DNA from: a virus
DNA: 34,733 nucleotides
Virus record (IMG/VR): IMGVR_UViG_3300017748_000040
Coordinates: 1-34,733 of that record
Reading direction: 5' to 3' (one strand)
Shown one piece after another: positions 8,893 through 31,126 of the stretch (the stretch's first letter is position 1; every line of letters starts with the position of its first letter). Made by a program: the position numbers and the translations under genes. The notes beneath the pieces are model-generated. The model made no database searches. It was not told the DNA's origin and saw only the letters and a program-made list of their open reading frames with translations.

Positions 8893-9519
8893 ATGCAACT
8901 TAGAATTAGCGTAAAACAAGTAGTTCAATCTGTTATAAGAAATTTAGAAGTGCAAAATGCTGCGTCTGAGTTTCATAATTTTGTTGAATGGGCATTTGAA
9001 GCAGAAAAAAAAATAGGAACCTTTAAAACTTTTGTAACAAAAGAAGCCTCTTTAACTATATCTAATAAACAAGCAACTTTACCTACAGACTTTATAGAGC
9101 TTATTGATGTAAAAAATTCACACGATATATACTACGAGCCAGGTCAAATTCCTTTTCAAGAAAAATCTAGAGAGTATAATAATTATGTTTACTATTATAA
9201 AAATGGATTTTTAAGATTTCCTGATGCTTTAGATACAAGTATTGATATAAAATATATTGCCTTAGAAGTAGATGAAGATGGTTACCCTACAATAGAGGCA
9301 AATCATGAAGATGCTGTTTCTCATTATTTAATGTATAAATATAAAGCAAGAGATTACTACAATCAAAAATTACCAAAATATATTTATGATGATTTAAAAC
9401 GTGAATGGTTTAGACTATGTGCACAAGCAAGAGGTAATGACAACATGCCTAATAGAAATCAAATGCGTTCTATTTCAAAGTATTGGAACACATTAATACC
9501 TAATGTACCAAAATACTAA
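8893..9519 (+). CDS. Tail tubular / ring protein (crAss neck)
   Basis: This 208-aa protein shows a recognisable neck-protein pattern. A helical N-terminus is followed by EWAFEAEKKIGTFKTFVTKE (residues 28-47). Then comes a strand with a conserved proline turn, ATLPTDFIELIDVK, and a short beta domain (KNGFLRFPDALDTSIDIKY). The C-terminal helices contain YDDLKREWFRLCAQARG. The W..EAE..IG and LP.DF..L..V elements recur in the ring/tubular proteins of crAss-like and P22-like phages. It sits between the IHF-like gene and the muzzle gene, where such a protein is expected. Expected role: part of the tail tube linking portal and muzzle. The specific ring number is not determined. Confidence 0.65.
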   Translation: MQLRISVKQVVQSVIRNLEVQNAASEFHNFVEWAFEAEKKIGTFKTFVTKEASLTISNKQATLPTDFIELIDVKNSHDIYYEPGQIPFQEKSREYNNYVYYYKNGFLRFPDALDTSIDIKYIALEVDEDGYPTIEANHEDAVSHYLMYKYKARDYYNQKLPKYIYDDLKREWFRLCAQARGNDNMPNRNQMRSISKYWNTLIPNVPKY

Positions 9520-9522
9520 TAT

Positions 9523-12500
9523 ATGTCTACTAAGAGCGTAAAACAACAGTTAAGTGAACTGTTAGGTAACAAAAAGTCTAATGTTTTTTATAAAGGACTA
9601 GATACTGATACTGATGAACATGTATTTGCTAATGATAGATTTATTGATGCAAATAATATAAGAATAAATAATCAAAATTCTGGTTTAGGTTCAGCTCAAA
9701 GTATTAAATCTAATGTTTTAGCTTCAACATTAACTACAACAGGTATTTTATTTAATCCTACTGATGTTACTACAGAAATGGTTGGCTCTCCTTCTGGTGT
9801 AGCTGGATTAAATGCAGACAGATTTTGGCTTGAAGGCAGTCATACTTATAATACTACAGATAATAAAATTCAAAAAGTAAAATGGACTTTTACTTATGTA
9901 GGGGGCATAACTTTTTCTCATGAAGTTATTATAGGAAGCGGAAAAGCTATTTTTGGTAATGTTAGCTCGCAATCAATGGTTGGTGCTAACAAAATAAGTA
10001 ATGATACTTTTATTAAATATTGCTATGATAGCATGACTAGTAGCGAAACTTTTACAAATGCAATTACTCCTGTTTTAATAATAACAGAAGAAGGTCAAAG
10101 TTCAAATCTTTTATTTACATCTAACACAACTTTAGATTTATCTAACATTACTTTATTTGTATTATCAGAAGGTGCTTCTCCCTCTGGTGAGTATAATGTT
10201 GTAAGTAACATTAGCGCTCCTATTGGTGTAGATAATGAAAAATTTGGTGATTATAATTTTAATGTTTCTACATCTACATTAACCCACTTTCCTTTAAGTC
10301 TTGTATCTTTTACAGGATATATAATAGCAATATGTTATGTTTCTGATAATTTAAATAGTATTTTAAAATTAAATGTAGATGGTGGTAATTTAGTAAGTTC
10401 AATTACACCTATAGTTTTTTCAAACTTTGGTTTGCAAAATCAATTTTCATCTATTAGAGCGCAAAAAGTAGAAGAAAATGAAAATTATAATAGAATATAC
10501 TGGACTGATGGTGTAAATCCTATTAAGACAATAAACATAAATGCTACATCAAATGTGTATGCTACTTTTACAGGGCCAGATAATTTTAATTTATTTTCTA
10601 AATCCCCATTACTGCCTCCTGTTATAAGAAGCGTTGAAGATGCTGGTAATGTAAACTGTGGTAGCTGGTCGTATTGTTATAGATTAATTTCAATTGATGG
10701 TAAACAATCAGTAATTTCTCCTATAAGTAATCCAGTGCCTTTAGGCGCTAGTTCTAAAAATTTTATATATAAAGATTATGTAGGAGGTTCTATTTCTACT
10801 TCATCAGGAAAATCTGTTACATTAAGAATATCAGATATAGAACAGGTTTATAATAGTATACAATTAATTGGTATTCAATATTTAAATAATGATGGTGGAG
10901 CAGCTTTCTTTTTATTAAAAGACGAAAAAATATCAGGAACAACTATAAACTTAACTCATAATGGTAATGAATCAGTAACTGTAATAACTGCTGGAGAATT
11001 ATTTACTAAAAAAAATACATTTGATATTGCGCAAGATATAGCCATTAAAGACAATAGATTGTTAGCTGCAAATTTAAAAAATTCTTCTTCAGAAGTAGTT
11101 TCAGATAACACAACTTTTAGAGTAAAAACTTTTAAACATACAGGCGCTAGCGGTTTAAGTAATTTTGATACGGCTCCTGACGGCACATCTACTAATGCTT
11201 ATGTTGCGGATACTGAAATTCATTCTAGTAGTTTATATGAACCAGAATTGTATAAAATAACGCCTGCAAATGAAACTTTATTTAGATACGCTGAAGGTAA
11301 AACTTCAGATGCTAAATTAATATTTGGGGCTAGTACGCCTGGTTATCACAGTACTACAACAGATTTGAATGGAGATACTGTAAATGCAGACATAAATGGT
11401 GTGTATGTAAGTTTTAAATTAAAAAAGTTTTCTTTAGAAAAAACATCTTTTTGGCAAAAAATATCAGAAGATGATGCTAATTTTCCTCAAGATTCTACAG
11501 ATGATGGCTATACAGAGCCTCCTTACTATGGATTAAATTCTAAAAGTGGTGAAGATTCTCATTTTGATAATTACAAAAACTCAATATTTGCACAAAAGTA
11601 TGTAGGGTATATGCGTGATGAAATATATCGTTTTGGTATACAATTTTATGATAAAGATGGTAATCAAACATTTACATACCCAATAGGAGATATAAGATTT
11701 CCAGCAATAGAAAATGACTATAGATTTATAGGTACAACAATTAACTCTTACACTCCAACAGCAGGTGATGGTAGTTCTAACCCTAGAAAATACATTTTAG
11801 CTGACTCTAATGGTGATGGTTATATATTATATCCAGAATTTAGAATTAAGCTTACAGATAGCGTTAAAAGAAAAATATCAGGATTTAGTATTGTAAGAGC
11901 TGAAAGAAATGACGAAGATAGAAGAGTTGTTACTGCTGGTCTTTTAAATAATACTTTATCATATAGAGACCATATAGAAAATGGAACCCTAAAAAATAAA
12001 ACAGGTTTAGATAAACAAAACTTATTTACTCAAGTTACTGGAGCAACAAACTTTGATAGTTCAGAAACAACAGAGTTATATACTTTAGATTCCCCTGATG
12101 CTATTTTTGGAGATTTTTCATATACTAAAACAGGAACTGAAAGTTTAAAAATAGCTTCTAAATTTTTATGTTATTCATATTCTAGTTCTGAAAAGCCTGA
12201 CGGAGGTTCTGATGACCATTTACATTTAGGTAATAGTTCAAGTGATGTAGTATGGATGAGAGATAATTCTACTAATACAACTTTTTATGCTGCTCCATTA
12301 GCCTTTGATTACACCACATCTCCTGATATTTCTGTAAGAGAAATGTCTTTTTATAGTAAATATTATTGTAATGATGATGTAAGTACAGGATTAAGTCTAC
12401 ACACATCAGATGCTTCAAAATACACAAAAGCAATACATTATGGTCAAAATATTGCTCCTGGAGGTGTAATTCCAAATTCATTACATACTCATACACAAGA

Positions 12501-14334
12501 CTTTTTAAATACATCAATGGTCTATGGTGGTTCTTCAGGCTCAAGTGTACATATAGATTTAAATGCTTTAGTTACTACAAGCAATTTAATATCTCACAGT
12601 TCTGGAAAAGCTAATGATGGAAACACTACAATATTTTTATCTTTATCTGATTCTTTACATTTTGATATGTCAGATAGTTCTTTAGATTTAGACACCCCTT
12701 TAGTTGAAGGAAGTCATTATGCTGCATGCAAACCTTATGGTAAAATAATTAGAACACTTACTAGTAGTTCTGGTCAGTATGGAGGAAGTTCTTTAGTAAA
12801 TTTTGAACAAACAAGATGGATTAGTACAGGCGCATCTGTACATGGTTCTGGTATTTCAAGCAATACAGGTCAAGAAATGATTGTATCTGTTTTTGGTGGA
12901 GACACTTATATTAATATGTTTTCATTAAATAAATTTCATAGAACAACATTTAATAATGATTCTAAATTTAGAATTGTACAAGGAGTTGTTTTTCCAGTAG
13001 AATCTTCAATAAATATAGATTTAAGACAAGGAACATTTTTTGGAAAAAACAGAGCAAATCTGCAATCAGAAGACGAATATATATACAACAAATCTTATTC
13101 TGCGGGTAACACTCTAAAAAGTTTTCCAGCAAAAGATTCAAATGTAAAATTAGTTTCAGATTTTAAAAGTCAAATAGCCATTTCTAATACTAAAATAGGT
13201 GGTCAAACAGAAGACGCTTTTTCTAAATTTGATTCTAATGAAAGTTTTGAGGTAAATCCAAACTATGGAGAAATTAAAAATATAGTATTATTTAGAGATA
13301 ATATATATTCTTTACAAGAAAGAGCAACATCAATATTATCTATAAATAGTAGGGCTTTAATTCAAAGTCAAAATAACGCAGATATATCTATACAAAGTTC
13401 TGTAGGAACAGGAAATGTTATAGAAAGAAACGATTATATAAGCATTAGTTATGGAAGTCAACATAGGATGAATTGTTTATCAACAGATAGAGGTCTATAT
13501 TGGTATGATAATTATAATAATTCTATTTGTAAAATTAGTGATGTAAATCCAAAACAAGTTCTTGACTTAACTACTTTAAAACTTTGCACTAAATTTTTAA
13601 GTAATTTAAAATTAGTAAAATTAAAAGACCAACCTTTATTTATAATAAATCAAACTATAAATACAAATGGTGGTGGAGTAAATATTTCTTACAATCCATT
13701 TTTAAATGAAATACTTTTTAGTTTTAATTATTTTGAACTTACAACTCCTGGATTAAATGCTACAGATGTTTCTAATTATTCAATAAAAAGCATGACTTTA
13801 GCTTTTGATGAAACTTTAGATGTATTTATAGGAAAAAGGGATTACACTACATTAATTAATACTCATCATGAAGGTTATTTATATAGTGTAGGTGTTAAAT
13901 CAATTTCTGAATCTAATTTAAATAAGGTTTATGTTCATGATGGTATTGAACACGCTACATTACCATATAATAATTTTTACGAAAACACTGTTTATCCATC
14001 AATTACTTTTGTAAATAATGAAGAGGTTTCTGCTTTAAAAGTTTTTGATAAATTAAGTCTAATGAGTACTGATACTGCAACTACTCCGTTAATATCAGAA
14101 ATATTTGATAGTTTTGTATACAATACAAATCATAACGGAACTATTTTAGATGTTTCATCAACACCTATAGATAAAGTTGTAGCAGGTAAACATATTATAC
14201 CAATTACTAATATAGATGGAAAAAGAATAAAAGGTAATTTTTTAAAAACACAAATAGTTCAAAATAAAGATTCTGAAACAAAACAATTTAAACTGTTTTC
14301 AGCAACAACTTATTATAGAAAAAACATAATATAA
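9523..14334 (+). CDS. Tail stabilisation (muzzle) protein, P22 gp10-like
   Basis: This 1603-aa protein is the probable distal tail plug around which the short tail closes. The N-terminus has NVFYKGLDTDTDEHVFANDR and RFIDANNIRIN, followed by LGSAQSIKSN. This is the start motif of crAss-type tail stabilisation proteins, in which a K-G-L-x-T-D opening leads into a beta-propeller-like repeat region. Further matches are RIYWTDGVNPIKTININ (about residue 326) and KISGFSIVRAER (about residue 789). The bulk is Ser/Thr/Asn-rich beta structure, and the protein is far longer than P22 gp10. An EF-hand-like calcium-loop sequence, DSNGDGYILYPE (761-772), is embedded in it. The gene starts 3 bp after the ring protein, and its stop overlaps the next start (TAATG). 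A contribution to host binding is possible but not shown. Confidence 0.75.
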   Translation: MSTKSVKQQLSELLGNKKSNVFYKGLDTDTDEHVFANDRFIDANNIRINNQNSGLGSAQSIKSNVLASTLTTTGILFNPTDVTTEMVGSPSGVAGLNADRFWLEGSHTYNTTDNKIQKVKWTFTYVGGITFSHEVIIGSGKAIFGNVSSQSMVGANKISNDTFIKYCYDSMTSSETFTNAITPVLIITEEGQSSNLLFTSNTTLDLSNITLFVLSEGASPSGEYNVVSNISAPIGVDNEKFGDYNFNVSTSTLTHFPLSLVSFTGYIIAICYVSDNLNSILKLNVDGGNLVSSITPIVFSNFGLQNQFSSIRAQKVEENENYNRIYWTDGVNPIKTININATSNVYATFTGPDNFNLFSKSPLLPPVIRSVEDAGNVNCGSWSYCYRLISIDGKQSVISPISNPVPLGASSKNFIYKDYVGGSISTSSGKSVTLRISDIEQVYNSIQLIGIQYLNNDGGAAFFLLKDEKISGTTINLTHNGNESVTVITAGELFTKKNTFDIAQDIAIKDNRLLAANLKNSSSEVVSDNTTFRVKTFKHTGASGLSNFDTAPDGTSTNAYVADTEIHSSSLYEPELYKITPANETLFRYAEGKTSDAKLIFGASTPGYHSTTTDLNGDTVNADINGVYVSFKLKKFSLEKTSFWQKISEDDANFPQDSTDDGYTEPPYYGLNSKSGEDSHFDNYKNSIFAQKYVGYMRDEIYRFGIQFYDKDGNQTFTYPIGDIRFPAIENDYRFIGTTINSYTPTAGDGSSNPRKYILADSNGDGYILYPEFRIKLTDSVKRKISGFSIVRAERNDEDRRVVTAGLLNNTLSYRDHIENGTLKNKTGLDKQNLFTQVTGATNFDSSETTELYTLDSPDAIFGDFSYTKTGTESLKIASKFLCYSYSSSEKPDGGSDDHLHLGNSSSDVVWMRDNSTNTTFYAAPLAFDYTTSPDISVREMSFYSKYYCNDDVSTGLSLHTSDASKYTKAIHYGQNIAPGGVIPNSLHTHTQDFLNTSMVYGGSSGSSVHIDLNALVTTSNLISHSSGKANDGNTTIFLSLSDSLHFDMSDSSLDLDTPLVEGSHYAACKPYGKIIRTLTSSSGQYGGSSLVNFEQTRWISTGASVHGSGISSNTGQEMIVSVFGGDTYINMFSLNKFHRTTFNNDSKFRIVQGVVFPVESSINIDLRQGTFFGKNRANLQSEDEYIYNKSYSAGNTLKSFPAKDSNVKLVSDFKSQIAISNTKIGGQTEDAFSKFDSNESFEVNPNYGEIKNIVLFRDNIYSLQERATSILSINSRALIQSQNNADISIQSSVGTGNVIERNDYISISYGSQHRMNCLSTDRGLYWYDNYNNSICKISDVNPKQVLDLTTLKLCTKFLSNLKLVKLKDQPLFIINQTINTNGGGVNISYNPFLNEILFSFNYFELTTPGLNATDVSNYSIKSMTLAFDETLDVFIGKRDYTTLINTHHEGYLYSVGVKSISESNLNKVYVHDGIEHATLPYNNFYENTVYPSITFVNNEEVSALKVFDKLSLMSTDTATTPLISEIFDSFVYNTNHNGTILDVSSTPIDKVVAGKHIIPITNIDGKRIKGNFLKTQIVQNKDSETKQFKLFSATTYYRKNII

Positions 14335-17405: not shown

Positions 17406-19184
17406 ATGGACTACAATAAAATTAATGAAATACTAAACACTTATAACACAAGCCCTTCTCTTAAAAGAGCTTTGAATTATAGTACAGCAGAAATGCAAAG
17501 AACTGAAAGGTTTAATGACTATCAAGCAGATAGAAAAAATGATGCATATAATTCTGTGATGGATAGAATTCAAGGTATAGAAAAAATGGCTAATGAAGTT
17601 ACTTTTAATAGACCAGGAGTTTTAGAAAATATTCAAGAAGTATATAAAGAAGAAAGGGACAAGTTATCTAAAACTATTATAGAAAAATACGGTGGAGATA
17701 TTACAAAATTTTATTATGGAGGTGGTCAAGCAGAGCTAGATATGTTTGAAAGAAATTTATTTGGTGGAGAAGAAATGCAAAATTTATTAAGAAGCAAGCC
17801 AGAAGTTGAAAAATATTTAGATGCTGTTACAGGAAAGAAAGGTAATAAAAGTGTTTTTCATTCTACTCAAAAAAGATATTTACAATTTCAATCAGGATTA
17901 GCGCCTACTTTTAACTTTGGAGAAACAATGATTCCTTATAAAGATGTTCCTTCTAGTTATATAGAAAAAGCACCTCAAGGAATGAGACTTATAGATGTTT
18001 ATTTAGGTTTTGGAGATAATGAAAATATAGCTAAATATAATTACTATAATGAAAAAGGTTTAAGCCCTGATACTGAAGTAGGGTACGAAACTATTGCACA
18101 ATATGCTGGAGGGTATTTAGGTGGATATGAAGGCCCTCAATCTCTTATTACTTCAAATGACCCTAAACTATCTAAAACTTTATTTGAATCAATTACGGCT
18201 CTTGGAAACAATTCTAATTTAAATCAAATTTCTAAAAGAGATGGTAATGTAAAAATGCAAGTAGAAAGATTAACTGAACTTGCAGGTTTGAATTTAAATG
18301 AACAAGTTTCAGAAGGCCCTATAGGTGGCTATAAAGCTTTTAAAGGAGATGAAACTAAAATGGTAGAAATATTTGTTGACCCATTATTTGATAGTAAAGA
18401 TTTCGTTTCAGATGCTTTAATAAATGAAGATGGAGATATTTCTATTGACCATAATACAGGCGAGTGGTTTGGAGGAAATGGAGAAAAGTTAAACTCTTCA
18501 GAAACTCTGCCTACATTACAACAAAATGGTGTATTTTTAGGTTTTAAAACTTTAGACGGAACTAATAGACTTTTATTTAGAGATGAATTAGAAAGTCATG
18601 AAGGCAAAGTAAAACCTGTAATGATGTTAAATCTTAAAAATGATGGATATTTTGGAGATGATTATTACTATAAAGAACTAAGATTTGATAGCGCTAGAAG
18701 GTCTAAAAAATTAAATGAATTATTCAAAATTGAAGAAGATGAATTGGTTCAACAAATGAACTATGATTATAACTCTAAACCTTCTGAAGAAAAAATAAAA
18801 GTTTCTTTTGCTGATATAAATATGAATTCTAGTTCAAATAGATTTTACGAATATGCTCAATACAATGATTCTATATTAGAAAATAAATTACCTGCTTTAG
18901 GTCTTGAGAATCCAACATTAAAAACAAAATCTACATTGTTAGCATCTAAACTTTTATTTGGTATAGATGAAATGGAAGATTTTCTACAACAACTTCATGT
19001 AAGTGAAAATCCAGATTTAAATGATGGATTGATTACAAACGACCCTCAATTGTTTTTACATAATTTAAAGTTAATTGTAAATAAAAGAGGTGCTTCAGAA
19101 GAAGAAGCAAATAATTTGATAAATACTATAGCAGAATTAAGCAAAAAGATAAATAACGCTGTTATAAATAAACACCAAAGATGA
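17406..19184 (+). CDS. Unassigned probable internal virion protein
   Basis: I do not recognise this 592-aa protein. The N-terminal 120 residues are helical and charged (TAEMQRTERFNDYQADRKND, then VYKEERDKLSKTIIEKYGGD). The centre is mixed, with several Gly-rich turns (FYYGGGQAELDMFERNLFGG; YAGGYLGGYEGP). The C-terminus is again helical (ASEEEANNLINTIAELSKKI). No signal peptide, membrane span or catalytic motif is visible. It lies between the wall-hydrolase-like ejection protein and the giant polymerase-like protein and overlaps the latter by 4 bp (ATGA), so co-translation and a shared virion role (cargo protein) are plausible. A chaperone or packaging partner for the giant protein is an alternative. 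Confidence 0.6.
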   Translation: MDYNKINEILNTYNTSPSLKRALNYSTAEMQRTERFNDYQADRKNDAYNSVMDRIQGIEKMANEVTFNRPGVLENIQEVYKEERDKLSKTIIEKYGGDITKFYYGGGQAELDMFERNLFGGEEMQNLLRSKPEVEKYLDAVTGKKGNKSVFHSTQKRYLQFQSGLAPTFNFGETMIPYKDVPSSYIEKAPQGMRLIDVYLGFGDNENIAKYNYYNEKGLSPDTEVGYETIAQYAGGYLGGYEGPQSLITSNDPKLSKTLFESITALGNNSNLNQISKRDGNVKMQVERLTELAGLNLNEQVSEGPIGGYKAFKGDETKMVEIFVDPLFDSKDFVSDALINEDGDISIDHNTGEWFGGNGEKLNSSETLPTLQQNGVFLGFKTLDGTNRLLFRDELESHEGKVKPVMMLNLKNDGYFGDDYYYKELRFDSARRSKKLNELFKIEEDELVQQMNYDYNSKPSEEKIKVSFADINMNSSSNRFYEYAQYNDSILENKLPALGLENPTLKTKSTLLASKLLFGIDEMEDFLQQLHVSENPDLNDGLITNDPQLFLHNLKLIVNKRGASEEEANNLINTIAELSKKINNAVINKHQR

Positions 19185-22100
19185 GTAACGGAATAAATTC
19201 TCCAAAAGAAGACATAAAAAAGTACGATAGTTCTTTTTTGCAAGACCCAAAAAATCCAATTGTTGTAAGACAAGAAGATGCTATAATAGATTCAAACGCT
19301 ATAGACTCTATAGGTTTTGGTTATAGCGCAGAAGAGTTAGAGTCTCAAAGACTATACCAAGAAGAGCAAGAAAGGAAAAGTAAAATAGATTACTCAATGG
19401 GTAATGTAGAAAAAGCTTCGCGTTCTTTTGTTGCGGGTATAGGTGATTTAGTTGAGGGAATGGGTGATGCTATTGATTATTTTTCAGGAAGTCCTGAGTC
19501 AGGTCTTACAAAAACAGATATAGCATCTGGTATTTCTAAAGATATATATGGTTTAGATGTTAATAAACCTATATCAAATTATGTTCATGGTTTAGCAGAT
19601 AAGCTACAATCTGTTGGAGATTCAGTAGAAGAGCTACATTCTACTCAAGATATTTCTTTTGGTGATATGTTTGATTTAGACTTTTGGTCTACACATGCAG
19701 CAAGAGCTATTCCTTTTAGTTTGAGCTTTCTTATTCCTGGTACTTTAGGGGCTAAAGGTGCAGCAATGGCTTATAGAACTTTATCAGCTTCTAGTAAAAT
19801 CACTAAAGGTTTTAGAGCAGGTAGAGCATTAAATAAAATAGGTTTAGTAAGCACAGCAGAGAGGGGTTCAAAATTAGCACAAACTGCATCTCAATTTACT
19901 GGAGGAATGTTGGCTGGTAACTTATCTGAAGGAGCGATTATAGCGGGTCAAACTTATAATGATGCTATTGAACTAGGTTTATCTGAAGAACAAGCGTCTG
20001 TTGCAGCACATGACACCTATGTAGATAACGCTAAATGGATGTTTGTTGACGGTTTACAGCTTATGGGTGTATTAGGATTACCAAAGTTTTTTAAAGGCGT
20101 ATTGCCAGTTAAAATGCAAAAAGCAATAGGTATAAATAATATAGTTAAACCTGGAATAAAAAGTTTAGTTAAAAACATGTCTATGGCAAGTGGCGTGTAC
20201 TTAACTGATGGTATGCTAGAACAATTTCAAGAAGTCTATCAAGATTGGGCTACAAAGAAAAACATAGCAGAACAACAAGGCGAAAAGTTTATGCCTTATT
20301 TAGATTACTTTACAAGTCAAGAAGCTTTACCTACAAGAGTAATTGCGTTTGCTACTTCTGGCCTTATGTCTGGTGGTAGAAGTTTAATGAATATTTCTGC
20401 TGAAAGAAAGGCTGCGTTTGACCAAAAATACATAGATGGTAAAAAGTTTTTAGTTGCAGAAAATGCTGATGTTTTAGACCAAACTACTGATGAATTTGAG
20501 TTAACTAAAAAAGATGTAGGAGAAGAATATACTCAAGGTCTTAGTTCTACTAAAAGACTTGAAGGTATGAAAGAAAACCAACTAATGTCTTTATTAGTAT
20601 TTAGAGCCTTAGACGGAAAACTAGACTATTATCAACAACTTTTAGAACACCATAAAGAAGAAGGAAATATAAGTCAACAACAATTTGATGACTATATGAC
20701 TACATCAAAAGAAGTTGAAAAATTAATTGAAGACACTCCTTCATATAATTTAAATAGAAATGAAAAAGCAAGATTAGTTATAGCTCAACAATTTATTAAT
20801 GAAAATAATAATAAAATTGAAAAAAATATAAATGAGCTTAAAAAAGAAATAGAAAAAATAGAGGCTAGCGATATAAGTCAAGAAATAAAAGATGCTGAGA
20901 TTCAAGGTATTAATACAAGAATACAAGAAGTTGAACAAGGTAATGTTCCTTTAGTAGATGAGCAACAAAATGTAATTAAAAATGATGAAGGAAAAGAGGT
21001 AACTATTCGTGAAGAAAATATAGTTCATAAAAGAGAAAAAGACTCAATATTTATAGAAGCTAGAAATAGACAAGAAAAAGAAAGAATACAAGAAGAGGTA
21101 ATACCTGCTGTTGAAACTATATTAAATAAAGAAGATAATAACGAAAGTCTAACTGACTCTGAGCAGTCTATAAAAGAAAAAGAAATAGAAACCTATAATA
21201 GAGAAAAATCTATTAGAGTTAGACAAAAGGCTCAAGAAAAAGTAGGAAAAGCATTTTCTTTTAATCCTTTTATAAAAAAAGAAGACGGTTCTTTAGTTTT
21301 TGATAAAAAAGAAAATAAAAATAATAAAACTATTATTACAAGAAAAATTGTGTCTTCTGATGGTTCTGTGCAAACAGAAACTATTACACAAGATAATATA
21401 ATTAAAAATGCTAAAGAAAAGGCAAAAGAAAAAGAGCAGGCTGATAACTCAGGAAAAAAAGATTCTAAAAATAATCAAGAAAAATCTCAAGAAGTTGAAG
21501 AAGAGGTTGAGGAAGATTCTTATTATAATAATCAACAAGAAGATACAACTAGAAAACAAGTAGTAAAAAAACAACAAGAATTAGACGCTTTAAGGCAAGA
21601 AAAATTAAATGGAAGGGTAAGTCTTGGGGACTTAAAAGTGTGGGCTAGAAACTTAGAAAAAGACAACCCATATACAATGGTCTTTTTTGATGAAACATTA
21701 AAAACAGAATTAGGATATGATGCTATAGGTAAGGCTGCTGGTTTATCAATATTTATAAATCCTAATTTAGCAGAGCAAGAAGTTTTTCATCATGAGTTGT
21801 GGCATGTTTATCAAAAAACATTTTACAACACAAAAGAAATGCAGAGTCTTTTAAAAAATATTGTAAAACAACCAATATTTGAAAAGACAAAACTTAAAAA
21901 TCTTAATTATTTAAGAGTAAGAAAAGGTAATAAAATAGTGCCTTTGTATAACTTAGTGCAAGACCAAAACTCTGTAGTTATATCTTTAGAAGAATATATT
22001 TCAAATTTAGGTCTTGAAATGAATAGTATATCTGATACAGAAAGGCAAAGTTATTTGTCAGACATGGAATCTGTTTTAGAAAATGAAGGCTATACAATAC

Positions 22101-25100
22101 TGCAAAATAGTAAACAAAAAGAAATAAAAGATGAAGCGTTAGCAATAGCTGGTGGTTATCAAAGTACTGGAGATGGAGCTGTTTTTGTTCAAGCAAAAAA
22201 ACAAAATAATAAAGTAAAAGATTTATTTAGAAATGTTTGGTCTAAAATTAAAAAGTCCACAAATGAAGAAACATCTTCTGCTTTATTAGCATCACAATAT
22301 CCAGATTTTTATAATAATGACTTTGCTATAATGCTTAGGAATTTTAAAAATGAAACTGCAAAAGGTGTAAATAATAAAATTTCTTGGAGTGTATATAAAA
22401 AAATGCAAGCAGGTTATTTATCTGCAAGAAGTCAAAAACAATCTAATGCAAAAGCTATAACAGAAATAACTAATGCTATTAGAGAAAATGAGGAAATAAA
22501 AAATATAATAGACTCTTTAAAAGAAAAATATGATATATCTGAAGGAACACGACTTCAAGCTTCAGATATGGAAGAAGCAGTAAATGAATCTGCTGAACAA
22601 TTTTCTAATACAAGTACAGATATATTAATTGATGTTTTAGCCACCGCTTTAAATAATGCGAAAGGAAAACCATTAGTTGTTGATGCTATTGAGAAAGTTT
22701 ATGATAATTTTCCAGCAATAGTAGAAGATAAGATTAAACATTATATAACATCTAAGGTTAGTAATGTTTTAAAAAACAATCCTGATTTAGAAAACATCAG
22801 ATTTGGAAGGCTTATTAAAGAAGAGTACAAAAGAGGTATTAACGATAGAGTGACAGCAATGTTAAATGGATTTGTTGACTCTTATAATACAAAAAATAAA
22901 AAAAATAGAATATCAAGAAGTATATTACAAAAAGAAATAGATAATCTTATAGATAATAATAGATTTGATTTAGAATCTTTTCTTGAAGAGGCTAATAGCG
23001 TAATTGAAAGAAATAACACCTTTGAAGAAAAATTATTTAAAGAGTTTGTTGATTACTCAAAGTCTGATTTAAAGTCTCCTGGAGCTGGGTATAATGGTGT
23101 TTTAAATAACATCTATCAATACTTTAAAGGTTTTAGGCATGAAAACATATTTCAATTTAATATATCTCCTGATGGGCAAATTTTTGTTGAAGAAAAAATG
23201 CCTAAAAATATATCTATGCCTAATAAAAGATTTTTAAATTATCTTTCAGGTAAGATGAAAAATGATGTAAGTTTTGCCCCAAGAATAATGGCTTTTTTAG
23301 TTGGTGCTAGAGATAATATTGGAGGTGAAAAATCAAAATACATTGCAAATATTTTTAATAAAATTATATTAGAAAATCAAGAAGTTAGATTAGTACAAAA
23401 CAATATTAGTCAATTAGATGTTTCAAGTTTAAAGATAGACGGAATGTTAGTAGAAGATTATTTTACTACAGAAAGACTTGATGAAATATTAAACTTTTTT
23501 ACAGACATAAACTTTAATGAAGCTTTTGATTTATACGCAAAAAAGAATCAACTTAAAGGAGAGTTTACACCACAACAAAAAATAGAAAATTTAATTCCTT
23601 TAATAGAAGATAGTATTAATAACTCTCAAATGGGTAAAGTCTATAAAGATGACAACCCAATTAAAATTGCAGTTATTAAAAAATTAAAAGACAGATTAAA
23701 CGAATATTACACTTTATCAAGTGAAGAACAAAAAGTTTCAAGACCTATAAAACTAAATAATCAAGATTTTATTGGTAGAGAAGGTTTAATGCCTGAAGTT
23801 CAAAGAAGAAAACGTTCAATAACAATAAACTTTTTCGATTTAAAAATTAATAATGTTCTTACAAAACTAACAGATTCTTTAGTTTATAAAGCAGATAAAC
23901 GATTAGCATTAGGTCAAGTTCAAGACCCCAATAATAACTTAATAGGAACATATAATAAGTCTTCATATTTATATGACAATATAGATATAACAAAAGATTA
24001 CTTTTATAATATGCAGTTAGAAGCGTCAAGCTCTGATATAATTGCTTATCCAAAAAGATTATTTGATTTGTTTGGGTTTAATTTTTATGCTAAAGGTTTA
24101 TTTCATGCATCTATTAGTCCTGACAACTTACTTCAGTATACAAAAAATAAAACACCATTTATTTTTGAACCAGAAATAGGATATATGTCTGGATATTATG
24201 ATGGTGTTTCAAGTAAAGGTTTTTCTTCAGGAAATATAAATCCTAAAACTTTTACAGCTTTAAAGATTATGCACATTTTTAATGCTATTAAAAACAAACA
24301 AAATACATATAAACAATTTGTAGGTCAAGCAGGAGATTCAGGAAGACAGTATTTTGTAAATAACGCTTCTGTTTTAAATATAGAACAAATAGCATCTAAT
24401 ATTAAACTTATAAATAGAGAGGCTAATAATATTTTAGACCAATCTGTTTATAATGAAAAAATAATTAGTTTATATAACAAACTAGTTAATGATGGCTATT
24501 TAAAAAGAAACAATAGCAATTTTAGATTATTTAAGATTGCTTACATGAATAATGTAATTAATAAATACTTTTTGCAAGATTTATTATTAAACAAAAAAAA
24601 TGTTTTAAATAATAATAAATTTTTAACTGACCATCCAAAAAGATTTAAAGGCGTAACATCTCCTGGAATACCTATGGGTAACACTAGAATTGTACCTATA
24701 ATAATTCAAGACCCTGAAGTTGATATTACTATTCCCTTATATAATAAAGAAAACCCTATAGTTTATAAAAACTCTCCTTTAGCTGACTCAGAGTCATTTA
24801 TACTTTTAGAACACCAAGAGTTTATACAAAATACTTTTGGAGAATTAAATGAAAGTGGTCAAAATATTAAAGGTTTATATTTTGGTCAAAACTTAGACAA
24901 TACATCTTTTGAAGAAGCTGTAGGAGGAAAAAAACGAGTTCCTATATATTTGAAATCTCATCACAAGGTTTTATCAGATTCATTTTCTAATGATAAGCCA
25001 GTATATAGGGCTATAAACTTTGTTTTGAAAGAAATCACTGAAAATCTAAAAGGAGAAAACGCTATACCTATAGTGTATTTTTCTAGCGCAATTAAAGGTG

Positions 25101-28100
25101 GCCTTACTAATGAAGATGTAAATAATATATCTTTTAATCTTTCTGATATAGTTAAGGCAGGAGAAGATGTAGTTTTTTTAAATAAAAAAATAAAAGAAGG
25201 TTCTAATAAAGTAGACTTAATAGAACAAGGTAGTTTGCAATCTTTAAACGAATTAGAACAAAAAATTATCAAAACATATAGGTTTAAAAATCAACAAGGA
25301 GGTTTTTCTTATGGATTTGATGGCAGAAACTATAAAGTTCAAACACTTTTAGACAATCAAAATAGAACAGGTGTAATTTCAAAACAAGAAATAGCTTCTT
25401 ATAATATATACGAAACTATTAAGTCTTTTGAAAGTGGAAATTTTGAAAATGGTTTACAAGCCATACAACCAATTAAAGAGGCCTTAGGTAAGTTACTTAA
25501 ACTGAACTACGAAAATAATTTTCAACAAAAAGATTTTGATACAATTTTTTCTGAAAACAAAGGAGTTTTACAAACGTTTATAGATAGGTTTGTGGCTGAA
25601 AAATTTGGGTCAGAATATATTGGAAATGAAGACATTATAAATAATGTAGTAAACTCAGCTTTTAAAAATCAAGTTATGAGTTTAAAAATGCAAGGAACTT
25701 TTTCAGTTGAAATGTCAGATATAGGTTTTAACGCTTCTGTAGATGGAGAAAATATTACATATTCGGATGAATTAAAATCTTATAGAGTTGATGATTCTGG
25801 TCAAACATTTTTTGCTGAAATAATCATGCCTTCTTATGCTAAAACCATGGGCGTAAAAGAAGGTGATTTTGTTATAGCAAGAAGAATACCTCACTCTAAG
25901 CCTGGAGATAGTCCAGTATATCAAGTTAAGTCTTTTAATGATGAACAAGCAGGTAATGTCACTATAATACCTACATCTCATGCGATAGCCATAGGTTCTG
26001 ATAAAGATGGTGATGGTTTGCATATTAGTATTAGAAATAATAAAAAAGACTTAACTGACATTGAGTCTGCACAAAATGAATATTTTGACTCTGTTGTATC
26101 TTTGTTTAGAGAGCCAGAAGTTCATGAAGTTGTAATGCAACCTATAGATTTCGTAGAAAGTTTTACAAATAAAGGACTAAACTATATAAAAGACAATTTA
26201 GGAATACAATTAAAAGATGATGCTGTTGACTTGTATCTTGATGAAGAAGAAATGATTCAAGATAGATTTTTAGGAAACTTTATAGGAATTATAGCATCAA
26301 TGAATAGAACTTTTAATTATTTTGCTAGAGGCGCTAAATCTGACTCTACAGTTATGTATGTGTCAAAAAATAATAAACCTGTTAGAGCAGGGATTAAAGT
26401 TCAATCTGCTATAAGTAACAGACAATACTCTATAGATAGAATATCAAATTTTGATGCTGATAACAATTCTTTATGGCTTACATACGCTAAAGCAGCTAAC
26501 TTTATTATAGATGATACAAAGTTTGGTAATAGAGCAAAGTTTGGTATAGTTAAAGAAACGGCTAACGATTTCTTTTTATTATTAAGAATGGGTGTTGATT
26601 TAGAAACTATTATTAGTTTAATGTATCACCCTAACTATAAATCATATATTGAAAATAAAGCTTTAGGAAAAAGCAATAAACTGGCTATTATAGATGCTTA
26701 TAAAATAAATCCTAATTCTTTAACTTATCCTGATTTAGAAAAAGATTCTGTTGTTAAAATAGAAAAAGATAAAAACATTTCTCCTGAAAGTCTTTATCAA
26801 CTTGTTGAAACCTTAAGTTCTTTTGCAAAAGACATAAGAGGGGTTCAACAACTTATAAATTTAGACCAAGAGGTTCCATCTAATTTATTTTCATTAATAA
26901 CATTAGAAAAACAAATAGAACAAATTTTATCTAAACAAAAATCTTTTAGTTTAATTATTGATAATGACCCTTATCTAAAAGCACATAAAGATATAGTTTT
27001 TGGAGGCTTTAAAGAAGAAGTAAAAAAACGTTCATTAATATCTGAAGAGGAAGCTTCTGAAGTTGTAAATGCTCTTAAAAACTTTGTTGATTTAACAAAT
27101 AAAGAAACTACAAATCTTTTAAACAACACATTGCAGTTTTATAAATTAGCCCTTGAAAGTTCTGAATCTATATATAATGATAAGTCATATCAAAGCCTTT
27201 ATTTAAGTCCATTAGACATGCTAGAAGAAGCAATCATGGAGTCTTATTCTAGTCAAATATCTAAAGGAGAAATACCAGTAGAATATAAAATGTTTTCTAC
27301 TGAAGAATATGCTTTTATAAAGGCTAGCGAATTAGCTAAAGACATGTTGGTTTTAGAGCAAACAGAAACAGGCAATATATTTGCTCAAGCAATAAAAGTA
27401 AATCCAGTTAGCACTGTTAAAAATTATCAAAATGAAAAAAATCAATATTTAGATAAATCATTTGAAGTTTACAGATTTAATTTTGACTTTAATACATTTA
27501 AAAATATTGAATCGGAAGAAGATTTAAATAATTACAAAAAGGCTTTCGAGCAACTTCCTGAAAAATTAAAAGAATTTTTTATAGGGTATGAATTTTATGT
27601 TAACAAATTTGGATTAGGAACAAATCAATCTTTAAAATCGTTTTTTCCTAACTCAGTAAATAATGTTTTAAAAAATAATAGTAAAAAAGTTGCTAAAAAT
27701 TCTAAAGCAACAAGTATAGTAGATTTTTTAAACAATTCAACATTTAATGATAATAGTGTTATACATAAAGCATATGTAGGTAGTGAACAATTTTTTGATG
27801 GTCAAACTATGTCTGCTATATTATTGTTAGAATTGTCTGGTAACTTTAATCCTAGTGTTTTTAGAAATGTTCTTCAAACATATAGAAATAAAAAAGTAGA
27901 AGTTGGTGAGTTAAATGGAAGGCTTCTTTTAGAAAAACCTAAATTTAAAATTAAAGATAAAGGAGTATCTGAATTTGATGTAAATCTTTACGAACAATTA
28001 CCAGAAGAACCTGCAAAAATTTCAGAAAAGTTTTCTATTAAAATAAATAATGACTTTACGGAGTTAAATGTGTTAAAACATTTTTCTCAACCTTTAGATT

Positions 28101-31100
28101 TAAAAACTGATACTAAAAAACTTAAAGGCGGAGAAATGTATTTGTCTAGGGTAAATGATTTAAATGAAGGTCAGTATGGTAAAGAAAGAAAAGAAAATGA
28201 AGAACAATATTATAGACAAACAGGTTTATTAAATACTAATGTTTCTTTTATAGATTTTGTTGAAATACCAGAATACAAAGAAGCTTACTCTGCGGCTAAA
28301 GCCAAATACGAAAGATACTTATCTGACTTAGTAGATTCAGAGGTTTTAAGACAAGATATGCTTCAAACAATATCTGTCCCAAGACTTTATGATAAATTTG
28401 ATGATGATTATTTTATTAAATTAAATGATAAAGTTTCTACTATATATAAAAATTCTTTAAAACTAGATTCTTTAGCTAAAAGAAATTTAATTTCAGAATT
28501 ATATAGAAGATATTCACAGGCTACTACACAAGGTCAAATTAAAAAATGGAAAAGCACTGAAGAAGGTAGAAAATTATTTGAAAGAATTGACTACAAACAA
28601 AATCAAGATAGGGACTTAGATATAGCAAGCACTTGGTTTAGTCCAGGAGACTTTGGTCAATACTTTCCAACTCTTGCTAGTGTAAGAAGAAACTTGGAAT
28701 TAGAAAATATGCGGATGCATAGAGATTTAAGAAAAGTTCAAAAAGAATTAAATGATGCTTATGTTGCTTTGTTTAATAGTAAGTATACATTGCCAAGAAA
28801 ACTAGTAGAAGGTATATCTGTTACGCCTATTGTAAATTTAATTTATTCTCAAACTCAAATAGCAGATAGCCTTTTTGAAAACTTACAAACTCAAAGGTCA
28901 TATTTAAAGAAAAATTCTAAAAATAAATATGAGTATGTAAGCGAAACAAAACTAAATGAAAAGTTTTTTACTGCTGATAATAAAGTAAAACTTTTAGTTA
29001 AAGGTACTAATCAAAAAGTTTCAGATGTTTTAAGTAAAGAAGAATATAATTACGCTAAACTAATTGAAAAATATACCACGTTCTATTCAGACTTGATAAA
29101 TTCAAAAGTTAGTAAAAATGAACTTTCTAGAAACTTTAAAACTAGACAATATTATACTCCAATAAAAACAGCCTCTTTATATGAAACATATAAACGAAGA
29201 GGTATATACGGGTTGTACTATAAAAGTTTAGATAAAGATTATTTATTTGATAATGTGTTTATAGATGCTTACAATCCTGTATCTAGAAAACAAGAAACTT
29301 TAACTTACAGAGACTTTAAAGCCATATACTCTACTAGTAATGAGGAAATTAAAAAATTTATAGAAGAAAACAAGTACACTAATATTGATATAAATGATTT
29401 TAATCAAGTAAAAAGAGTTAAGGCTTTAAAGAAAGCGAGAAAAGATGCTAGGGCATATTACGAATCTGGTAAAGACGCTTTAGGAAATACTATAGTAGAA
29501 GATAGTGGAGAAATGCAAGCTATAGATGCTGAGCAGTCTATTATGAATCGTTATATATCTAAACGTTCAAGAAGAGCTTCTTACTTTGCGGGTAACAATT
29601 TACATCATGCTATATATTCTTATATAAAAGCAATGACGTTTCAGTTTGGAACAGCCTATCAAAGTAATGATAATATATATAAAAGATTATCTTTTAAGGT
29701 TGCTGAAGATGAATTGTATGGAAAAAACTCTGTTCGTTCAACAATAGAAAGTTTAGGTAAAAACTCTTTTTTAAATTTAGAAAATAGCGAGCAAGGTGGT
29801 AGAAACTTTGAAGGTTTTGAAAAACAAAAACTTATGGTTCATGCCGCTAAGTTTAAAATGGAGTCTGAAAACAAAAAAAATTCAGCAAGATATTTACAAG
29901 AAGTAATTTTAGATAAATTTATAAGTAAAGAGCCTAAAAAAACTTTTACTAGATTTGAAAGAACTGAAAGAGGTTTAGCAAATTTTCTAACTAAGTGGAC
30001 AATGTATGTTGGTTTAGGTTTTAATATACCTGCTGCTAAGTATAATGTTTTAATTGGTAAATACAACTCTTATAGGTCTCAAGGAGGTAAAGATTCTATG
30101 GTTGGTATAGCTAGATATTTTGGAGTAGATAATATAACAAGCGGCAAGTTTGACCATAGGGCTATGAAAAAAGCATCTAAAATGCTAGATGAGTTTGGTA
30201 TACTTACATATAGGCCTGAAGAACAACTTGAAGGAGTTTCGGCAGAAACTTGGTTTGATAAAATATTATTCTCTCCTATGGTTGCTGCTGAAAAGTTTAT
30301 ACAAGCCTCTCAATTTTTAGGAGACCTAACTCAAGAAGAGTACGACTCTTATTACTTAGACAAAGATGATAACCTACAAATAAAAGATACAGCAAATGTT
30401 TTAAGTGCAGATAGGCTTGCTGCTATATCGAGAAGAATACAAAACACACAAGGTAGAGGTTATTCTGACTTAGACCAAAGACTAATACAGGTATACGCTT
30501 TGACTAATATGACTTTGCAATTTAAAAGATGGTTGCCTACATATCTTACTGATAGGTTAGGTAAAGGTGGCTATGAAAGTTATATTGATGATTTTGGCAA
30601 TATATATAGAGGAAGTATACAGTCTGCTGTTTCTAATCCAAAAACATTATTAGGAATTGAAAGTTTAGGTAATCAAGATACTGGAACAAAAGAAGGTATA
30701 GAAAGATTTAGAAGAGGCGCTATAGGGTTTGCTTTAGTTGCAATGTTATTGCTAGCCACTGCTGATGATGATAAAAAAGAAGAAGATATGTTTATAGACT
30801 TGCAAAGAGTTATAGATGACCAAGCTTTACTTTTAAATCCTGAAGATTGGAAATGGTTGGTTACAGTTCCTGGTTTTGCAACATTAGAAAACATGATTAT
30901 GTTGTTTTCAGAAATAATTAAAGGTGCAATTCCTGGAATAGATGCTGGAAGATATACTAGAGATGCTAAATATGGGGCTAAAGGAGATTTAAAGGCTACA
31001 AGAAGGGTTGCTTCTCTATTACCAACTTTTGCTAGAAGTTTATTAGAAAGACCTCAAACAAGAAGTGAGAAATCTAGGCAGGCTAAAAGAAGCCAACAAA

Positions 31101-31126
31101 AACGTAGAGAAAAAAGTACTAGATAA
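19181..31126 (+). CDS. Giant virion protein: RNA polymerase-like core plus zinc-peptidase motif
   Basis: This is a 3981-aa product. Residues 1-60 are polar. Residues 165-400 have hydrophobic, Gly/Ala-rich segments (PFSLSFLIPGTLGAKGAAMA). Residues 540-590 are coiled-coil, followed by a highly charged linker to about 830. A zincin motif, FHHELWH, has its HExxH at 871-875. Residues 1869-1974 run from ADSESFILLEHQEFI to YFSSAIKGG (Lys1972). Residues 2234-2280 run from ARRIPHSKPGDSPVYQV to AIGSDKDGDGLHI (Asp2274, 2276, 2278). These two regions resemble the two double-psi barrels of single-chain RNA polymerases, the second matching the catalytic DxDxD of beta-prime. phi14:2 gp66, a virion RNA polymerase, is the nearest known type (about half this length). 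Residues 3847-3864 form a hydrophobic segment, and the last 30 are basic. It is probably packaged and ejected. Polymerase activity is inferred, and no sign of a frameshift is seen. Confidence 0.7.
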   Translation: MSNGINSPKEDIKKYDSSFLQDPKNPIVVRQEDAIIDSNAIDSIGFGYSAEELESQRLYQEEQERKSKIDYSMGNVEKASRSFVAGIGDLVEGMGDAIDYFSGSPESGLTKTDIASGISKDIYGLDVNKPISNYVHGLADKLQSVGDSVEELHSTQDISFGDMFDLDFWSTHAARAIPFSLSFLIPGTLGAKGAAMAYRTLSASSKITKGFRAGRALNKIGLVSTAERGSKLAQTASQFTGGMLAGNLSEGAIIAGQTYNDAIELGLSEEQASVAAHDTYVDNAKWMFVDGLQLMGVLGLPKFFKGVLPVKMQKAIGINNIVKPGIKSLVKNMSMASGVYLTDGMLEQFQEVYQDWATKKNIAEQQGEKFMPYLDYFTSQEALPTRVIAFATSGLMSGGRSLMNISAERKAAFDQKYIDGKKFLVAENADVLDQTTDEFELTKKDVGEEYTQGLSSTKRLEGMKENQLMSLLVFRALDGKLDYYQQLLEHHKEEGNISQQQFDDYMTTSKEVEKLIEDTPSYNLNRNEKARLVIAQQFINENNNKIEKNINELKKEIEKIEASDISQEIKDAEIQGINTRIQEVEQGNVPLVDEQQNVIKNDEGKEVTIREENIVHKREKDSIFIEARNRQEKERIQEEVIPAVETILNKEDNNESLTDSEQSIKEKEIETYNREKSIRVRQKAQEKVGKAFSFNPFIKKEDGSLVFDKKENKNNKTIITRKIVSSDGSVQTETITQDNIIKNAKEKAKEKEQADNSGKKDSKNNQEKSQEVEEEVEEDSYYNNQQEDTTRKQVVKKQQELDALRQEKLNGRVSLGDLKVWARNLEKDNPYTMVFFDETLKTELGYDAIGKAAGLSIFINPNLAEQEVFHHELWHVYQKTFYNTKEMQSLLKNIVKQPIFEKTKLKNLNYLRVRKGNKIVPLYNLVQDQNSVVISLEEYISNLGLEMNSISDTERQSYLSDMESVLENEGYTILQNSKQKEIKDEALAIAGGYQSTGDGAVFVQAKKQNNKVKDLFRNVWSKIKKSTNEETSSALLASQYPDFYNNDFAIMLRNFKNETAKGVNNKISWSVYKKMQAGYLSARSQKQSNAKAITEITNAIRENEEIKNIIDSLKEKYDISEGTRLQASDMEEAVNESAEQFSNTSTDILIDVLATALNNAKGKPLVVDAIEKVYDNFPAIVEDKIKHYITSKVSNVLKNNPDLENIRFGRLIKEEYKRGINDRVTAMLNGFVDSYNTKNKKNRISRSILQKEIDNLIDNNRFDLESFLEEANSVIERNNTFEEKLFKEFVDYSKSDLKSPGAGYNGVLNNIYQYFKGFRHENIFQFNISPDGQIFVEEKMPKNISMPNKRFLNYLSGKMKNDVSFAPRIMAFLVGARDNIGGEKSKYIANIFNKIILENQEVRLVQNNISQLDVSSLKIDGMLVEDYFTTERLDEILNFFTDINFNEAFDLYAKKNQLKGEFTPQQKIENLIPLIEDSINNSQMGKVYKDDNPIKIAVIKKLKDRLNEYYTLSSEEQKVSRPIKLNNQDFIGREGLMPEVQRRKRSITINFFDLKINNVLTKLTDSLVYKADKRLALGQVQDPNNNLIGTYNKSSYLYDNIDITKDYFYNMQLEASSSDIIAYPKRLFDLFGFNFYAKGLFHASISPDNLLQYTKNKTPFIFEPEIGYMSGYYDGVSSKGFSSGNINPKTFTALKIMHIFNAIKNKQNTYKQFVGQAGDSGRQYFVNNASVLNIEQIASNIKLINREANNILDQSVYNEKIISLYNKLVNDGYLKRNNSNFRLFKIAYMNNVINKYFLQDLLLNKKNVLNNNKFLTDHPKRFKGVTSPGIPMGNTRIVPIIIQDPEVDITIPLYNKENPIVYKNSPLADSESFILLEHQEFIQNTFGELNESGQNIKGLYFGQNLDNTSFEEAVGGKKRVPIYLKSHHKVLSDSFSNDKPVYRAINFVLKEITENLKGENAIPIVYFSSAIKGGLTNEDVNNISFNLSDIVKAGEDVVFLNKKIKEGSNKVDLIEQGSLQSLNELEQKIIKTYRFKNQQGGFSYGFDGRNYKVQTLLDNQNRTGVISKQEIASYNIYETIKSFESGNFENGLQAIQPIKEALGKLLKLNYENNFQQKDFDTIFSENKGVLQTFIDRFVAEKFGSEYIGNEDIINNVVNSAFKNQVMSLKMQGTFSVEMSDIGFNASVDGENITYSDELKSYRVDDSGQTFFAEIIMPSYAKTMGVKEGDFVIARRIPHSKPGDSPVYQVKSFNDEQAGNVTIIPTSHAIAIGSDKDGDGLHISIRNNKKDLTDIESAQNEYFDSVVSLFREPEVHEVVMQPIDFVESFTNKGLNYIKDNLGIQLKDDAVDLYLDEEEMIQDRFLGNFIGIIASMNRTFNYFARGAKSDSTVMYVSKNNKPVRAGIKVQSAISNRQYSIDRISNFDADNNSLWLTYAKAANFIIDDTKFGNRAKFGIVKETANDFFLLLRMGVDLETIISLMYHPNYKSYIENKALGKSNKLAIIDAYKINPNSLTYPDLEKDSVVKIEKDKNISPESLYQLVETLSSFAKDIRGVQQLINLDQEVPSNLFSLITLEKQIEQILSKQKSFSLIIDNDPYLKAHKDIVFGGFKEEVKKRSLISEEEASEVVNALKNFVDLTNKETTNLLNNTLQFYKLALESSESIYNDKSYQSLYLSPLDMLEEAIMESYSSQISKGEIPVEYKMFSTEEYAFIKASELAKDMLVLEQTETGNIFAQAIKVNPVSTVKNYQNEKNQYLDKSFEVYRFNFDFNTFKNIESEEDLNNYKKAFEQLPEKLKEFFIGYEFYVNKFGLGTNQSLKSFFPNSVNNVLKNNSKKVAKNSKATSIVDFLNNSTFNDNSVIHKAYVGSEQFFDGQTMSAILLLELSGNFNPSVFRNVLQTYRNKKVEVGELNGRLLLEKPKFKIKDKGVSEFDVNLYEQLPEEPAKISEKFSIKINNDFTELNVLKHFSQPLDLKTDTKKLKGGEMYLSRVNDLNEGQYGKERKENEEQYYRQTGLLNTNVSFIDFVEIPEYKEAYSAAKAKYERYLSDLVDSEVLRQDMLQTISVPRLYDKFDDDYFIKLNDKVSTIYKNSLKLDSLAKRNLISELYRRYSQATTQGQIKKWKSTEEGRKLFERIDYKQNQDRDLDIASTWFSPGDFGQYFPTLASVRRNLELENMRMHRDLRKVQKELNDAYVALFNSKYTLPRKLVEGISVTPIVNLIYSQTQIADSLFENLQTQRSYLKKNSKNKYEYVSETKLNEKFFTADNKVKLLVKGTNQKVSDVLSKEEYNYAKLIEKYTTFYSDLINSKVSKNELSRNFKTRQYYTPIKTASLYETYKRRGIYGLYYKSLDKDYLFDNVFIDAYNPVSRKQETLTYRDFKAIYSTSNEEIKKFIEENKYTNIDINDFNQVKRVKALKKARKDARAYYESGKDALGNTIVEDSGEMQAIDAEQSIMNRYISKRSRRASYFAGNNLHHAIYSYIKAMTFQFGTAYQSNDNIYKRLSFKVAEDELYGKNSVRSTIESLGKNSFLNLENSEQGGRNFEGFEKQKLMVHAAKFKMESENKKNSARYLQEVILDKFISKEPKKTFTRFERTERGLANFLTKWTMYVGLGFNIPAAKYNVLIGKYNSYRSQGGKDSMVGIARYFGVDNITSGKFDHRAMKKASKMLDEFGILTYRPEEQLEGVSAETWFDKILFSPMVAAEKFIQASQFLGDLTQEEYDSYYLDKDDNLQIKDTANVLSADRLAAISRRIQNTQGRGYSDLDQRLIQVYALTNMTLQFKRWLPTYLTDRLGKGGYESYIDDFGNIYRGSIQSAVSNPKTLLGIESLGNQDTGTKEGIERFRRGAIGFALVAMLLLATADDDKKEEDMFIDLQRVIDDQALLLNPEDWKWLVTVPGFATLENMIMLFSEIIKGAIPGIDAGRYTRDAKYGAKGDLKATRRVASLLPTFARSLLERPQTRSEKSRQAKRSQQKRREKSTR

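Follow-up and report, generated by a model that had tools for sequence, protein, structure and literature searches.

A giant open reading frame and its parts

The stretch of DNA analysed here (the window) is the complete contig of IMG/VR virus record IMGVR_UViG_3300017748_000040, 34,733 bases long, and this report concerns a single open reading frame (ORF) at positions 19181-31126, which encodes a protein of 3981 amino acids (aa) and is interrupted by no internal stop. A preliminary description of this DNA had proposed that the gene encodes a divergent, ejected RNA polymerase with two barrel signatures; the strings and residues quoted there are all found in the ORF at the positions given, and two neighbouring virion proteins that appear as fusion partners in the same frame were overlooked. 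Parts resembling gp67, gp66 and gp65 of phage phi14:2 lie in this single chain in the gene order of that phage, and the following features can be placed along it (DPBB, double-psi beta-barrel):

19181..31126, plus strand: giant ORF, 3981 aa, fused crAss-like virion RNA polymerase with gp67/gp47-like, gp66/gp50-like and gp65/gp49-like parts (ORF, blastp, hhalign)
19325..20227, plus strand: N-terminal region, aa 49-349, like crAss002 gp32 and phi14:2 gp67, a cargo protein encoded before the RNA polymerase (blastp, hhalign)
21692..22156, plus strand: putative gluzincin metalloprotease domain, aa 838-992, with H871-E872-x-x-H875; Q979 and E985 are possible further active-site residues (invariance in homologues)
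24164..27181, plus strand: RNA polymerase core, aa ~1662-2667 (AlphaFold2; 6VR4 fold match; hhalign to the gp66 family)
24686..25099, plus strand: DPBB-B, beta-type barrel, aa ~1836-1973, with invariant D1869, K1925 and K1972 (model strand pattern; gp66 alignment)
25685..26029, plus strand: DPBB-A, beta-prime-type barrel, aa ~2169-2283, with R2235-x-P2237 (model strand pattern; gp66 GYRIP aligned; RNA polymerase II match)
25994..26014, plus strand: catalytic loop GSDKDGD, with D2274/D2276/D2278 as the expected metal-binding triad (aligned to gp66 GSDFDID, D1361; GSD[KLM]DGD in all homologues)
29975..31024, plus strand: C-terminal region, aa 3599-3948, like phi14:2 gp65 and crAss001 gp49, an RNA polymerase-associated virion protein (hhalign, blastp)
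30707..30763, plus strand: aa 3843-3861, the 19-residue segment of highest hydrophobicity, with an acidic run after it (Kyte-Doolittle scan)

The polymerase core

Independent evidence from sequence, profile and fold supports the assignment of aa ~1660-2670 to a two-barrel RNA polymerase, the nearest solved relative of which is phi14:2 gp66. A tblastn search with aa 1601-2600 reached Dulem virus 41, where the gene is unannotated (6e-5), and cr128_1, where it is called a 'putative RNA polymerase' (2e-4), and blastp matched gp66/gp50 homologues at 3.5e-9 to 1.1e-5. When a profile of the new family was compared with one built from phi14:2 gp66, crAss001 gp50, cr128_1 and Dulem 41, hhalign joined the two over aa 1600-2300 (98.7%, E 1.7e-16) and aa 2100-2800 (98.5%, E 3.7e-15), and every other segment of the giant ORF scored 1% or less. 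The aligned span with the phi14:2 gp66/crAss001 gp50 family covers aa ~1800-2600, and identity to gp66 across the core is about 15 per cent.

At this distance the outcome of a search depends on its form. A phmmer search of PDB with the single giant sequence gave no match, a profile being required, and with the family profile the top hmmsearch matches in PDB were to the virion RNA polymerase of P23-45. Scanned against PHROGs and Pfam, the giant protein yielded nothing useful, and PHROGs searches with 15 core sequences pointed to no consistent family; one Pfam match of the giant protein, to IL22 at 0.065, was dismissed as noise. In the reverse direction, hmmsearch with gp66 and gp65 profiles found none of the new homologues, and the relation to these proteins is therefore visible only via profile-profile and fold comparison.

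An AlphaFold2 model of aa 1640-2800 (predicted local distance difference test 79.7, predicted template modelling score 0.75) places the two adjacent double-psi barrels, together with their R-x-P and DxDxD and companion-lysine elements, where the preliminary description had located them. The condition named beforehand as a refutation, a model lacking two adjacent barrels, was not borne out. The alignment of this model with 6VR4, the structure of gp66, by VIA-align covers model residues 23-1028 (Z 21.4, root-mean-square deviation (rmsd) 4.3 over 871 residues), and P74-26 gp62, an independent single-chain RNA polymerase, aligns over 455 residues across both barrels (Z 12.1); almost all of the remaining matches listed are largest subunits of multisubunit RNA polymerases. 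The DPBB-A region is matched by the largest subunit of RNA polymerase II at 2.2 A rmsd over ~108 residues, and the catalytic loop is flanked in the model by a helix and a strand, which is exactly the arrangement of gp66. Matches of the core in BFVD are mostly to crAss-like phages.

Foldseek placed 6VR4 first (1.7e-19) and QDE-1, which the preliminary description had also named for comparison, second (2.6e-4), with cellular and phage RNA polymerases ranking below. The second of these matches leaves some room for a two-barrel polymerase that uses a different template or makes a different product, for instance one that reads RNA as QDE-1 does. However, the nearest relative by far is gp66, which has been described as a DNA-dependent virion component that is translocated with the DNA and transcribes early genes (PMC7886860, PMC10136315), and the host genome is double-stranded DNA; an enzyme of this other kind is accordingly judged very improbable.

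The motifs themselves fall where the alignment with gp66 would place an active site. In the window protein ADSESF begins at aa 1868 (D1869), K1972 lies within SSAIKGG, ARRIP begins at aa 2233 (R2235, P2237) and GSDKDGD at aa 2272, the codons of D2274, D2276 and D2278 being at nucleotides 26000-26014. In the profile alignment ADSESF pairs with TDAQAW (961) of gp66, VPIYLK with TPTYLK (K1925 with K1027), SSAIKGG with DGVKVG (K1972 with K1065), RRIP with YRIP (GYRIP), and GSDKDGD with GSDFDID (D1361). Across 15 giant homologues, 19-40% identical to the window protein, only ~97 of the 3981 positions are invariant, and these include D1869, K1925, K1972, R2235, P2237, G2272, S2273, D2274, D2276, G2277 and D2278, among them all of the residues that had been singled out beforehand as important. 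The loop GSD[KLM]DGD stands near aa 2150-2590 in all complete relatives.

Chance alone would give ~0.9 bare DxDxD strings in a shuffled sequence of this composition, and a second one does occur at aa 3143, but in 2000 shuffles the arrangement of R-x-P followed 25-50 residues on by G[SA]DxDxD never arose, and the copy at aa 3143 lies outside any such setting. The string DKDGDG could also be taken for a calcium-binding, EF-hand-like loop that resembles a polymerase by chance, and D-x-D-x-D-G does fit the first half of an EF-hand. Yet relatives have Q, A, S, M or N at position 6 of the loop, where the window has glycine, position 12 holds R and no acidic residue, no EF-hand was matched by Pfam in the giant protein, and the idea, doubted from the outset, is already refuted by fold and alignment in that the whole core folds like gp66; its probability can be regarded as negligible.

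Crassvirus proteins (cr118_1, cr50_1 and ctcfK29) that carry the name 'DNA helicase' in UniProt are among the top BFVD fold matches of the core, and judging from the model they are probably misnamed.

Fusion partners and a putative zincin

The N-terminal likeness is detectable by direct comparison, aa 49-349 matching crAss002 gp32 at 2e-8 and phi14:2 gp67 at 1.6e-4 in blastp (hhalign 89% and 86%). At the other end, aa ~3540-3950 align with gp65/gp49 in hhalign (98.1%, E 7e-14, 336 columns); blastp of the C-terminal region gave 0.006 to a 1331-aa homologue in Dulem virus 41, and no phage match came from a tblastn search with the C-terminal third, such that the relation to gp65 emerged only by profile comparison. 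The hydrophobic segment at aa 3843-3861 is possibly a membrane helix, and a comparable hydrophobic stretch with an acidic run occurs near the C-termini of cr4_1 gp27 and crAss002 gp33.

The stretch that connects the N-terminal part to the core contains an HExxH motif with a possible downstream glutamate ligand, and H871, E872, H875, Q979 and E985 are invariant in the 15 homologues. One complete relative of 3969 aa (L090) retains GSDLDGD and is without HExxH, and because of this the zincin motif would be dispensable in part of the lineage. The AlphaFold2 model of the region is mostly below 50 in local confidence and is confident only locally, around both helices; its comparison with PDB gave no fold match, a search that is uninformative with a model of this quality, and hhalign of aa 700-1300 against the zincin region of gp47 gave no confident link. 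The likeness of the domain to the annotated zincin of crAssphage LMMB is thus confined to motif and position. A second HExxH, absent from the window protein, occurs near aa 3250 in two sister giants (HETIH at aa 3261 of L052, HESVH at aa 3244 of L079), and the motif is also present in phi14:2 gp65 (aa 245) and cr4_1 gp27 (aa 342).

Comparison with known systems indicates how the three parts are distributed elsewhere. In phi14:2 a muzzle-size gene and three further genes are likewise followed by gp67, gp66 and gp65, and gp66 shares the single-chain two-barrel core, the R-x-P, the GSDxDxD loop and the DPBB-B lysines, but there the parts are three separate proteins of 1797, 2180 and 1421 aa, and the loop reads DFDID where the window has DKDGD. 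The phage crAss001 has the same three homologous parts in gp47, gp50 and gp49, with an HExxH toward the C-terminus of gp47, yet in three genes, of which gp47 is on the opposite strand, that sum to 6102 aa; all three products have been detected in crAss001 virions by mass spectrometry (PMC10172136). In crAssphage LMMB (Intestiviridae) and crAss002 the catalytic subunit is fused to the gp49-like subunit and the zincin is located in the RNA polymerase-associated protein, as the LMMB annotations 'RNAP catalytic subunit/RNAP subunit fusion' and 'RNAP associated protein/zincin protease fusion' reflect (RNAP, RNA polymerase), although two genes are used (4070 + 1957 aa in LMMB, 4245 + 2020 aa in crAss002). 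In the Suoliviridae cr4_1 and cr7_1, by contrast, it is the HExxH-bearing gp47-like part that is fused before the core; the gp49-like part of cr4_1 is a separate gene, and internal stop codons require readthrough. Flavobacterium phage Fpv3 has a giant polymerase ORF (gp32, 4287 aa) at the corresponding position, downstream of the muzzle and two cargo genes, but its gp65-like part probably belongs to gp33, the gene that follows (hhalign 75%). Outside this group, Thermus phage P23-45 gp96 also joins a two-barrel virion RNA polymerase to a giant virion protein, but in that unrelated phage the partner is a tail tape measure protein and details of the fold differ.

The other crassvirus families examined fuse just two of the three parts, and among the phages compared all three appear in one ORF only in the window lineage. 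The giant ORF of cr7_1, in which zincin and polymerase share one frame, was a candidate for an earlier fusion of this kind and was rejected since no gp65-like match was found there. A literature search returned no report of a complete triple fusion; an earlier description may exist, because a review mentions genes for RNA polymerases as long as ~6000 aa (PMC10136315).

The giant polymerase ORFs of cr7_1 (L069, 1027-17358) and cr4_1 (L070, 524-13999) are annotated 'hypothetical protein'. Under translation table 11 they contain 148 and 38 in-frame stops, respectively, which would fit the stop reassignment expected in Suoliviridae; ORFs of the window lineage need no such reassignment.

Neighbouring genes and lineage

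The remaining genes of the window form a crassvirus structural cassette, all of the following on the plus strand:

1..1158, plus strand: terminase large subunit (TerL), C-terminal part (phrog_6681, 3.4e-54)
1161..3401, plus strand: portal protein (phrog_6547, 1.7e-107)
4489..5919, plus strand: major capsid protein (phrog_11589, 3.9e-34)
7853..8503, plus strand: crassvirus tail ring protein 2 (PF25702, 6.2e-18)
8893..9519, plus strand: crassvirus tail ring protein 1 (PF24228, 6.4e-30)
9523..14334, plus strand: crassvirus muzzle protein (PF25731, 1e-114)

TerL, portal, major capsid protein, ring proteins and muzzle stand in the conserved order by which membership of the Crassvirales is recognised, and the muzzle and then three cargo-size genes lie directly upstream of the giant ORF. 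A megablast search with the first 12 kb of DNA matched none of 50,697 phage records, and the best portal identities are ~31%, with cr7_1 (Suoliviridae) among the highest. In a portal tree (midpoint root, several weak forks) the window lineage forms a separate clade next to Steigviridae, Suoliviridae, Intestiviridae and Fpv3. On these comparisons the source phage belongs to an uncultured lineage that is a distant relative of the crAss phages of the gut and has no close relative among deposited phage records.

Scans of viral contigs and genome contigs with the single sequence of the giant protein or its core found no relative. Sister phages were found via the portal, with giant ORFs of 4011 and 4047 aa, and with the alignment of sister giants as the query 16 loci were reached and then 27. 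Every complete relative found is a single ORF, of 3508-4627 aa.

Two further genes deserve mention. A basic 156-aa ORF at 8421-8891 lies between ring proteins 2 and 1, its TTG start call overlapping ring 2 by 83 bases, near the usual place of the crassvirus IHF gene, and it is also present in a sister contig (G003); no Pfam or PHROGs match to IHF was found in the window, and this ORF has no family match. In the cargo position, a 608-aa protein (15578-17404) matches phrog_196 (baseplate hub), phrog_4928 and phrog_21656 (peptidase) over aa 21-170, a region that probably gives this virion protein a domain for degrading the cell wall.

Proposed ejection and transcription from a single chain

There is strong reason to think that the 3981-aa protein is the fully fused form of the known crAss-like virion RNA polymerase. 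The enzyme class is already known in crassviruses; what is new is the uncultured lineage and the complete fusion. Several points weigh against this reading: the middle residue of the loop is K, L or M, as opposed to F in the crassvirus RNA polymerases examined; barrel geometry was judged via secondary structure and fold alignments; the lineage is known from sequence and model alone; and early target genes are out of view because the contig is a fragment of a genome.

It might also be proposed that the polymerase fold has been kept and its activity lost, the protein serving mainly in ejection or channel formation, and the fusion to ejection-type domains would accommodate this. A dead enzyme, however, is expected to lose active-site residues, and since the three aspartates, both lysines and R-x-P are invariant in the 15 homologues, with GSDxDGD in every further homologue, such a loss is disfavoured and appears quite unlikely.

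If the protein is instead an active virion polymerase, its part in infection may be outlined by analogy. Homology and gene neighbourhood, the giant ORF lying directly after tail and cargo genes, lead us to infer that it is packaged and ejected, and its polymerase activity, template and early-gene role are inferred in the same manner. Because it is homologous to the phi14:2 polymerase, the ~450 kDa chain would be synthesised late, incorporated into the virion and extruded together with the DNA; its N-terminal part may help to form the entry channel, while the core would fold in the cytoplasm as the two barrels come together. D2274, D2276 and D2278 would then hold the catalytic magnesium, the companion barrel would contribute K1925 and K1972 to the active site, and early phage genes would be transcribed without the host RNA polymerase.

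A more speculative proposal, which we hold only tentatively and think somewhat less likely to be right than wrong, is that channel-forming cargo protein, zincin, RNA polymerase and associated subunit constitute one obligatory polyprotein that is threaded through the tail as an all-in-one ejected machine. It might then act either as one membrane-tethered unit transcribing the DNA at entry, or be cut by its own zincin into separate subunits like those of other crassviruses.

The finding would widen the range of virion-packaged two-barrel RNA polymerases to include an uncultured lineage without a close deposited relative. The variation of K, L and M within an otherwise fixed GSDxDGD loop, together with the short, compact form, offers a practical target for studies of structure and activity. 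The single-chain form bears on passage through the tail and on the roles of the partner proteins: the entire crassvirus transcription and ejection set is possible as one chain, about one quarter to one third shorter than the summed separate proteins, and if a single molecule can hold all three parts, these probably work at the same site and in equal numbers.

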